Part shown: positions 9,334-11,293 of the stretch, piece by piece | How the letters are laid out: each line of letters begins with the position of its first letter | Numbering within the stretch: the stretch's first letter is position 1 | Notes under the pieces: generated by a model | The model's input: the letters and a program-made list of their open reading frames with translations, nothing else | The model's database searches: none | What the model was told of the DNA's origin: nothing | Source of the DNA: Tumebacillus sp. BK434 | Lineage (GTDB): Bacteria > Bacillota > Bacilli > Tumebacillales > Tumebacillaceae | Assembly: GCF_004340785.1 (NCBI RefSeq) | Contig: NZ_SLXS01000001.1 | Location: 682,001 to 746,000 of the forward strand | DNA length: 64,000 nt | Reading direction: 5' to 3' | Translations under genes and position numbers: made by a program

Positions 9334-9362
9334 AAAAAAGAAGAAGCCGGCGGCTCCTCCTT
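9334..9362 (-). terminator. Intrinsic terminator of the acetyltransferase gene
   Basis: On the minus strand GGAGCC-GCC-GGCTTC forms a short stem followed by TTC and a run of eight T residues. It overlaps the end of the gene at 9361. Confidence 0.65.
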
Positions 9363-9906
9363 ATCTCTTCAGCCCTTCCCAGTTCGGATTGACGATCGCA
9401 AAATGCACGCAGTCACGCCACTCTTGGTTCAGCAAGATGTATTTTTCCGACCGCCCGACATACTGAAACCCGAGCCGCAGTACCGCCATCTGGGCCGGGA
9501 CATTGGTCGTCAGCGTCGATGCTTCCAGCCGATGCAGGCGGTGTGTCTCGAACGCTTCCCGCATCAGCAGGCGCAGCGCCTTGCTGGCGATCCCATGTCC
9601 GGCGTGCAAGCGGTCGAGATGGCAGCCGATCTCCGCCTTTTGGCGCGGACCGCGCATGATATCATACAGGTGGCAGCGCCCGACCAAGTCCCCTTTGCGG
9701 TTGTGGATCAGGTAGGAGAAACGCTCTCCCGTCCGGTGGGCCGCCACCTGCTGCTCAACCAGCTCGCGCAGCCTTTTCGGATGATAAAACCGGTCATCAT
9801 CCCGCCCCGGCACAGTCTTGCGCAAAAACTCGCGGTTCGAAATTTCAAAGTCGATCACTTCTTCATAATCCGCTTCTGTGATCAGTCGGATCTCGATGTC
9901 TGACAC
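9361..9906 (-). CDS. GNAT-family N-acetyltransferase, RimJ/RimL type
   Basis: The GTG at 9906 is preferred because GGAGG lies 7 bases upstream; it gives 181 residues. The sequence has the GNAT pattern: IRLITEADYEEVIDFEISNREFL at the N-terminus, an acetyl-CoA-binding region around HAGHGIASKALRLLM, then LHRLEASTLTTNVPAQMAVLRLGFQYVG typical of RimJ/RimL proteins that acetylate protein N-termini or small amines. The substrate is unknown. It lies 70 bases downstream of the XRE-type regulator gene, which ends in its own terminator, so they are probably separate units. Confidence 0.85.
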   Translation of the reverse strand: MSDIEIRLITEADYEEVIDFEISNREFLRKTVPGRDDDRFYHPKRLRELVEQQVAAHRTGERFSYLIHNRKGDLVGRCHLYDIMRGPRQKAEIGCHLDRLHAGHGIASKALRLLMREAFETHRLHRLEASTLTTNVPAQMAVLRLGFQYVGRSEKYILLNQEWRDCVHFAIVNPNWEGLKR

Positions 9907-9965
9907 GAAACTTCCTCCATTCACTCCGGCGAAGCTGCCTGTCCCAGTCAACCTGCGAGCTGAAA

Positions 9966-9988
9966 AAAGGCCTCCGTCAGAGGCCTTC
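9966..9988 (-). terminator. Intrinsic terminator of the XRE-type regulator gene
   Basis: AAGGCCTC and GAGGCCTT arms around a short loop, followed by TTTTTT on the minus strand. The hairpin covers the stop codon at 9977-9979. Confidence 0.85.
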
Positions 9989-10495
9989 CTGCGCGCCGTC
10001 CAGCGCCAATTCCTGCAGACGCTTGTGCGCAACTGATGGGTCCATGCTGTAATAATGCAGAAAATGGTCCTCGTCGAGGATGCGGAAATGTCCGGTCAGC
10101 ACATGCTTTTGCAGACAAAAGCCTCCCGTGCGCTGCACCTCCGTCCACCATACTTTGCCGCCCAACGTCTTGTACCAGGCACCAGACTGGCGCTTGCCGG
10201 CGACCAGGTCGAGGATCTCCAGCACAGAGTCCCCGAACAGCGCCTGCACGATCTCGCTTTTGCGAAACAGCACCGCCGTCAAGCCGGCCGCCGTGAACCC
10301 GAGCGTCTGGCGTCCTTTTTCGACCTGCACCAGCGTTTTCTTGGAGATGCCGATCGTCTCGGCCATCTTGTCTTGCGTCAGGTCCAGCTCCGCCCGGATC
10401 AGCCGCAGCTTGTCCGAGACCATCTTATCGAACTGATCCCGGCTAAATCCTTGTGCAGTTCCCTGTTCCACTGCGTCCGACCACCTTGTCGTCAT
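9977..10495 (-). CDS. XRE-family transcriptional regulator
   Basis: A 172-residue protein with a central Cro/C1-type helix-turn-helix (about residues 28-75, LRLIRAELDLTQDKMAETIG and SKKTLVQVEKGRQTLG). The C-terminal 85 residues are rich in aromatic residues and form an unrecognised domain. No Shine-Dalgarno site precedes the ATG at 10495; a consensus promoter ends only about 11 bases upstream, which points to a leaderless mRNA. An inverted repeat at 10497-10510 abuts the start codon and is a likely autoregulatory operator. An internal GTG nine codons downstream, preceded by AAGGTGG, is an alternative start. The regulated genes are unknown. Confidence 0.8.
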   Translation of the reverse strand: MTTRWSDAVEQGTAQGFSRDQFDKMVSDKLRLIRAELDLTQDKMAETIGISKKTLVQVEKGRQTLGFTAAGLTAVLFRKSEIVQALFGDSVLEILDLVAGKRQSGAWYKTLGGKVWWTEVQRTGGFCLQKHVLTGHFRILDEDHFLHYYSMDPSVAHKRLQELALDGAQEGL

Positions 10496-10544: not shown

Positions 10545-10572
10545 AGAGCCCCCCGTCAACAGACAGGGGGCG
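10545..10572 (-). terminator. Hairpin terminator after the HesB-like gene
   Basis: GCCCCCCGTC and GACAGGGGGC pair at nine of ten positions. The minus-strand tail is TCTTTGGG, so the U-tract is weak. Confidence 0.5.
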
Positions 10573-10586
10573 TTCAGCAAAGCTCG

Positions 10587-10880
10587 TCAACACTGCGAGC
10601 CGGGAATGCTTTCATCATAAATCGAAAAGCCTGCATCTTCCTCATAGTCGATCACAAGGTCCTGCACCAGGCTCGCCGTCTTCGCGCCGAACAAAAACAG
10701 GATGCCCTCTTCTTCGACTTGGGTATCGCGCGGGGCCGGTTCATCCAGAGCCAGCCGATAGGACGGACCGCCTCAGCCCGGCAAGACATAGATGCGCGCA
10801 CCGTGGTGCTCCTTGCCTTCGAGCTGCTGGAGCTCTTTGATCCGCTCAACAGCCGCTGCGCTGATGTCGATCGTAATCAT
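10587..10880 (-). CDS. HesB/IscA-like protein with in-frame TGA, probable selenoprotein
   Basis: Read through TGA as selenocysteine (U), the gene encodes 97 residues beginning MITIDISAAAVERIKEL. The ATG at 10880 has a GAGGTGAGG ribosome site. The TGA (10773-10775) sits in ARIYVLPG-U-GGPSYRLALDEP, exactly where HesB/IscA proteins have the cluster-binding Cys of the GCSG loop. The frame continues with typical family sequence (EEEGILFLF, LVIDYEEDAGFSIYDES) to a TGA at 10587. A subfamily of HesB-related proteins is known to contain Sec at this position. A modest stem can form just after the TGA: 10770-10767 with 10740-10737, and 10764-10761 with 10746-10743. The C-terminal CGCG cysteines of true IscA are absent. 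A nonsense mutation is the alternative, but conserved sequence on both sides makes decay less likely. Confidence 0.75.
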
Positions 10881-11293
10881 CTTCCTCACCTCACCACCAG
10901 TGTAGCATATCCGGTTGTGCAGGGATAATCCCACGTTCGAAGCGCGAATTACCCGGAAGTTGTATTTATTGAAGCTTTTGCCAACAGCTTCGACGTTCAC
11001 TGCTTGCACGACGAAAAACTCTTCTGGTTTTCATCGGCCCTGCACTGCATCGTACAACCTCCCCGTATAATTTCGGAAAGTTACAAATATTCTATCTTAA
11101 AGACGTTACCGAATCGTTCCCAGACTTCCAGACTCGGGAGATAAGCCTCCAGTCCTATTCTTCATTTGCACTTACTAAATGTTTGACAAATCGGACTCTT
11201 TTTCGTACAATTCTAAAGAAATCAGCTTCGAGCATGAATACAATTTGCTCGAACATAAATTCATTCCTTATTTTTCTTCGGGAGGGAAAAAGT
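10881..11293. other. Long intergenic region with the promoter of the NSS transporter
   Basis: No protein-coding gene is convincing in these 413 bases. The region contains a strong plus-strand promoter at 11183-11211 and a short repeat (GAAGCT and AGCTTC around 10970-10991). I see no recognisable riboswitch. Confidence 0.6.
11183..11211 (+). promoter_or_regulatory. Sigma-A promoter of the NSS transporter gene
   Basis: A perfect -35 TTGACA (11183-11188), 17-base spacer and -10 TACAAT (11206-11211). It predicts a 5' untranslated region of about 75 bases. Confidence 0.8.

Follow-up and report, generated by a model that had tools for sequence, protein, structure and literature searches.

A small gene on the minus strand of the window, that is, of the whole 64,000-nucleotide stretch of Tumebacillus sp. 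BK434 DNA that was analyzed, very probably encodes a selenoprotein in which the UGA at codon 36 directs the insertion of selenocysteine (Sec) through SelB and a hairpin downstream of the codon. The codon is almost certainly not a stop, which makes the gene a new branch of the already known family of HesB-like selenoproteins. An earlier note on this DNA had called it a probable selenoprotein, a view borne out by a conserved TGA, a single reading frame under selection, a covarying hairpin and a full set of Sec machinery genes. The features concerned are as follows.

10587-10880, minus strand: predicted HesB/IscA-like selenoprotein gene, 97 residues plus a TGA stop (codon 98), assigned by PF01521 and by orthologues in the bacterial family
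10773-10775, minus strand: in-frame TGA, codon 36, predicted to be read as Sec, in the alignment column of the first cluster-ligand Cys in IscA/ErpA
10734-10756, minus strand: SECIS-like hairpin, GGCUGG/CCGGCC plus UC/GA around a C.A mismatch, with the apical loop UGGAU at 10747-10743
10590-10592, minus strand: codon of the C-terminal Cys97, which in the alignment with 2apn lines up with the first Cys of the CxC tail in canonical IscA/ErpA
10587-10589, minus strand: end codon TGA, read as stop; TAA in the orthologue L023, with no conserved frame past the end
10881-10892, minus strand: ribosome-binding-like sequence GAGGTGAGGAAG, immediately upstream of the ATG
10548-10571, minus strand: terminator-like hairpin after the stop, with a 10-bp stem and a UGUU loop (z -4.06)
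9977-10495, minus strand: HTH_3 (helix-turn-helix) regulator gene, the downstream neighbor of the selenoprotein gene

The gene, whose strand is left unstated in the earlier note, runs from an ATG at 10880 down to a TGA ending at 10587, and its translation with Sec at the internal TGA is MITIDISAAAVERIKELQQLEGKEHHGARIYVLPG-U-GGPSYRLALDEP...GSQC-stop. The ribosome-binding-like sequence GAGGTGAG is also common to the orthologues L018 and L019. Codon 36 stands in the context LPG-U-GGPSY, so that the UxGP motif found at the HesB cysteine is present as UGGP (residues 36-39). The position assigned to the TGA in the earlier note, at a conserved cluster-ligand cysteine and in frame to a proper stop, was confirmed: a second TGA (10589-10587) ends the gene, and the Sec column falls on the first Cys of IscA/ErpA. 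With Cys placed at codon 36, the protein scores 30.6 bits against Pfam PF01521 (Fe-S_biosyn), above the gathering cut-off of 26.3. When 15 family members (14 of the TGA type) were combined into a profile, it matched seven sequences in all from solved structures, including the IscA/ErpA-type chains 1nwb, 2apn, 1s98, and 1r94, in which the first Cys of the GC-G loop occupies the Sec column. An AlphaFold model built from only two sequences had a mean pLDDT of 46.7, too low for it to be of use.

That HesB-related selenoproteins form an established family agrees with the listing of the HesB-like protein under TIGR01911, with the motif UxGP (PMC13188914). Comparison with TIGR01911 (HesB_rel_seleno) bears on the window protein in two ways: the motif is there, but the score of 21.4 bits lies under the curated cut-off of 66.35. 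The best NCBIfam match is NF038090 (IscA_HesB_Se; 46 bits, 5.1e-12), which extends over nearly the full length yet does not reach the curated cut-off of 85. Because it scores under both cut-offs, the window protein is a relative of these named seleno-subfamilies and not a curated member. It shares with the TIGR01911 proteins the Sec at the conserved HesB cysteine, the UGGP motif, the character of a small IscA-like protein, and a SECIS-like hairpin; it differs from them in its score and in belonging to a supported clade of its own bacterial family. In a tree of 37 rows (a set that differs from the 37 TGA-bearing loci described below, with three Cys rows in and L023 and L070 out), the window's clade of six has support of 99/97, and the deepest branches are weak.

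IscA/ErpA carriers have three Cys ligands, arranged as C...CxC. The window protein shares the PF01521 fold family and the first ligand column with canonical IscA, ErpA, and SufA, but it has Sec in place of that Cys, its tail stops at the first Cys of the CxC, and the CGCG is lost. The second Cys of the usual CxC being absent, Sec36 and Cys97 are all that is left of the three-ligand set. The C-terminal Cys column is at least 90% conserved in the 37-row alignment, and the residue is missing in L042, L062, and L070. From homology to these carriers, we lean, by a small measure, towards an A-type-carrier-like protein in which the selenolate of Sec36 and the thiolate of Cys97 would replace the thiolate ligands of iron or of an Fe-S cluster. 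Since the tail goes no further than the first Cys of the CxC, no more than two of the usual three ligands are available, and therefore the protein might hold a labile cluster, bind iron, or form a Sec-Cys redox pair. The last of these leads to a reading that competes with the carrier part only and leaves Sec insertion untouched, namely that Sec36 is a redox or a metal- or metalloid-binding residue, for example in a Sec36-Cys97 selenenylsulfide, and not an Fe-S ligand. This is a serious possibility, though we would stop short of calling it probable. The loss of all usual ligands but Sec36 and the terminal Cys97, together with the strong conservation of the latter, speaks for it, as does the statement in PMC13188914 that many selenoproteins have thiol-based oxidoreductases as homologs; against it, the fold family and the ligand column are those of Fe-S carriers, and no redox partner gene was identified among the seven neighbors scanned. 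These neighbors encode an HTH regulator, a GNAT acetyltransferase, an SNF-type transporter, SpoIID, ClpP, another HTH protein, and a GH84-type glucosaminidase. No isc or suf gene is found among the seven, which, like the missing ligand Cys, counts against the carrier role. The HTH regulator and GNAT acetyltransferase genes (window 9361-10495, minus strand) lie downstream of the selenoprotein gene in the three genomes of the genus, and neither is found within the 1.5-kb flanks in the four genomes of the other genus.

The case for Sec insertion at codon 36, as distinct from the carrier role, begins with the conservation of the gene. The window protein was searched against 61 genomes, of which 42 gave a match; the window's own genome comprises 4.65 Mb in 32 contigs. 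Each of the seven family genomes searched (the window's own genome and that of Tumebacillus avium included) carries an orthologue with one TGA at the corresponding codon, the T. avium copy being 87% identical to the window gene. When genomes were scanned with the single protein as the query, one of 95 candidate stretches was confirmed as such a locus, again in T. avium. Because the same TGA codon is kept in 7/7 family genomes, a chance TGA is very unlikely. The ratio omega was computed on six of the seven family orthologues, L023 having been omitted for its different length. Before the TGA it was 0.10-0.45 in 13 of 15 pairs (the other two were saturated); for the part that follows, 13 of 15 pairs gave 0.08-0.35, with dS saturated in two. 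The coding sequence on either side of the TGA is thus under purifying selection, in agreement with the earlier claim that it is conserved on both sides. Frameshifts or decay around the TGA, which would have argued against the selenoprotein reading, are absent from the close relatives, where the TGA is kept intact. In all, 37 TGA-bearing loci were extracted by choice, some others with TGA being left out, and all 37 have the TGA at the corresponding residue, for which they were extracted.

In bacteria, the SECIS element carries a G near the start of its apical loop. The window gene has a hairpin just after the UGA with a G at that place. The earlier note had proposed a possible stem at 10770-10737; a hairpin is predicted there, but these coordinates were only roughly right, since the structure spans 10756-10734 with its loop at 10747-10743. 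The hairpin covaries, but the folding energy of the post-TGA region of the window, taken as a single sequence, is no better than that of shuffles (z 0.02 to 0.66), and for this reason the evidence for the hairpin is comparative. In the 36-nt stretch after the TGA, all 37 TGA loci fold into some hairpin (mean -10.3 kcal/mol), but the same holds for the 14 Cys loci looked at (mean -6.7), and in 51-nt folds some loci (L057, L058, L059) favor another structure. The loop word CTGGA occurs in 35/37 TGA loci versus 1/14 Cys loci (L071, which has no Cys at that place, is not counted). The usual form in the window's relatives is UUGGCUC-UGGAU-GAGCCAA, at nt 19-37 after the UGA.

Covariation was tested on 25 rows with common spacing and loop, 12 of the 37 being left out for another spacing, loop, or stem. 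Pairing was found in 95.2% of 168 cells, and five of seven pairs were changed on both sides. Of five measures of covariation, four had values that none of 500 shuffles reached; the remaining one, further pair types, was unremarkable (127/500 shuffles as high, and 75/500 in the outside-family set). Slid registers reached 46% pairing at most. Only the window copy fails to pair at columns 26-36 (C.A), a position that is paired in all 23 other distinct rows, but it gains the lower-stem pairs GGCUGG/CCGGCC. On these comparisons, the hairpin predicted after the TGA is a conserved and covarying element.

Two models of the hairpin were used for searching. The window copy was included in the training of the first, R1, and because of this circularity a held-out model, R2, was built from 11 rows, all from outside the bacterial family (92.2% pairing, with four of seven pairs changed on both sides), and run on the window and 14 loci. 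In the 64-kb window, R2 gave a single match at E up to 1, at 10728-10775 (36.8 bits). At the same threshold it gave no match in L065 (the genome's own Cys ErpA-type locus), in L071, or in L001 (the selA-selD locus), and there was one weak second match in L058 (E 0.25). R1 gave three good matches in the window's own genome, all of them HesB-like TGA genes, and a fourth at E 4.18, with 150 of 1488 first-look candidates scored. The loci L095 and L096 had R1 E-values of 1.96 and 4.18. A weaker R1 match in another genome, L087 (G002), is another HesB-like TGA gene with the sequence GMGUGGPNY. L094 (G004:C1:72428-72467) is a weak R1 match (E 0.067) in which UGGPPYVL is followed by a quick loss of HesB likeness; it is perhaps a decayed HesB-like copy or a remnant.

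The Sec machinery, which according to the earlier note the organism must possess if its reading is true, was found in full. The window's genome has selA (605 bits), with selD immediately behind it (412.6 bits; cut-off 125), selB (393 bits, with a C-terminal SelB-wing_3 domain), and a tRNA-Sec with the anticodon TCA (65 bits), which ARAGORN also detects. The selD gene itself has an in-frame TGA (L001:2942-2944) in the context GUGCKIGP, and the strong hairpin after it (z -2.0) is unlike the HesB hairpin and is not matched by R2. A search of the same genome for formate dehydrogenase alpha gave three matches, with an in-frame stop in none. Over the 61 genomes searched, selA is above cut-off in 32, and the search found HesB-like genes of the TGA type in 21 of the 32 versus 0 of the 29 others (Fisher p 1.1e-8, kinship ignored). 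Since no HesB-like TGA gene was found in 11 of the selA-positive genomes, the pattern suggests that Sec use does not require such a gene. From what is established about bacterial Sec insertion, SelB with GTP and Sec-tRNA(Sec) would bind the hairpin and insert Sec at UGA-36, and UGA-98, which is without a SECIS element, would stop translation.

The same evidence bears on the reading of the gene as disabled, in which the TGA would be a true stop leaving a 35-residue fragment, or the whole would be a pseudogene. The one broken SECIS pair of the window copy is in keeping with such decay, but the retention of the TGA in every searched family genome, an omega well under 1 after it, an unbroken frame, and the complete Sec machinery make this highly improbable. 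Still less probable is that the final TGA (10589-10587) also encodes Sec, giving a C-terminal Cys-Sec. A strong hairpin does follow the end codon, which is TGA in six of the seven family orthologues; but L023 ends in TAA, no frame is conserved past the end codon, and neither SECIS model gives a match at this hairpin, so a second Sec codon is unsupported. The hairpin is moreover terminator-like: a hairpin with a T run also comes after the stop in L018, L019, L020, and L023, and none is clearly seen in L021 and L022; the T run of the window copy is weak. The final TGA is most likely a stop. Decoding of TGA as another amino acid such as Trp, by a code change or suppression, would equally leave the frame open, but its likelihood is next to nil given that the gene's own end codon is TGA, that a tRNA-Sec with the TCA anticodon is present, that the homologous residue is Cys, and that the loop word so sharply separates TGA loci from Cys loci.

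The window gene, for which insertion of Sec is thus the preferred reading, has several relatives in its own genome. Of the five IscA-family genes found there, the window gene, C5:231026, and C5:188109 contain a TGA; the remaining two do not, one being ErpA-type (C7:125381) and the other lacking the cysteine (C3:712975). The two further TGA genes, L047 (G000:C5:231026-231316) and L070 (G000:C5:188109-188402), are HesB-like and each has a SECIS-like hairpin; L070 has the C-terminus KIRL, without the terminal Cys. The Cys-less gene, L071 (G000:C3:712975-713247), is IscA-like without the cluster Cys (HVHGDHAHYGL) and is His-rich both at that loop and at the C-terminus, possibly forming another metal site. 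In three related genomes of the same order, ErpA-type carriers have TGA at the first cluster Cys (GGUSGFSYGM) and keep the CGCG tail (L058, L060, and L061 in G007, G011, and G012, respectively). Of these, L058 was scanned and exceeds the NF010147 ErpA cut-off (127.4 versus 117 bits), and the R2 matches after the TGA of the three loci have E-values of 0.003-0.004. G011 has both TGA and Cys ErpA-type copies, and no Cys ErpA-type copy over the TIGR00049 cut-off was found in the draft assemblies G007 and G012.

Mutagenesis and 75Se labelling led to the identification of a HesB-like selenoprotein in the archaeon Methanococcus maripaludis, a protein whose function was called unclear in 2024 (PMC11097638); the likeness to the window protein, as another HesB-like selenoprotein, is by description only. 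The HesB-like protein is also in the selenoprotein listing of PMC9312934, a count from 2006 gives 11 HesB-like selenoproteins and three selenoproteins in Bacillales (PMC1794560), and HesB occurs once in PMC5029168. In the titles and abstracts of the open-licence literature, no paper was found on the window's HesB-like clade or on a Sec-containing ErpA. Three things are new: the clade, which scores under the curated HMM cut-offs; the presence of three predicted Sec-containing HesB-like paralogues in a single genome; and the predicted use of Sec by ErpA-type carriers of relatives. Because the clade falls under the curated family cut-offs, we infer that automatic annotation of its genes may be truncated or missing, and the hairpin models R1 and R2 offer a route to finding such genes.

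With several HesB-like TGA genes per genome and a clear SECIS signature, Tumebacillus is a good setting in which to study the role of selenium at a cluster-ligand position. A wider proposal, which is speculative and on present evidence rather doubtful, is that much of the A-type Fe-S carrier set of this order has moved to Sec: besides the three paralogues of the window's genome, the sole ErpA-type carrier found over the TIGR00049 cut-off in G007 and in G012 has the TGA. If this were true, Fe-Se(Cys) ligation would be a functional and possibly essential form of Fe-S cluster trafficking, and the need for it may rank among the chief reasons for the retention of the Sec machinery in these bacteria.
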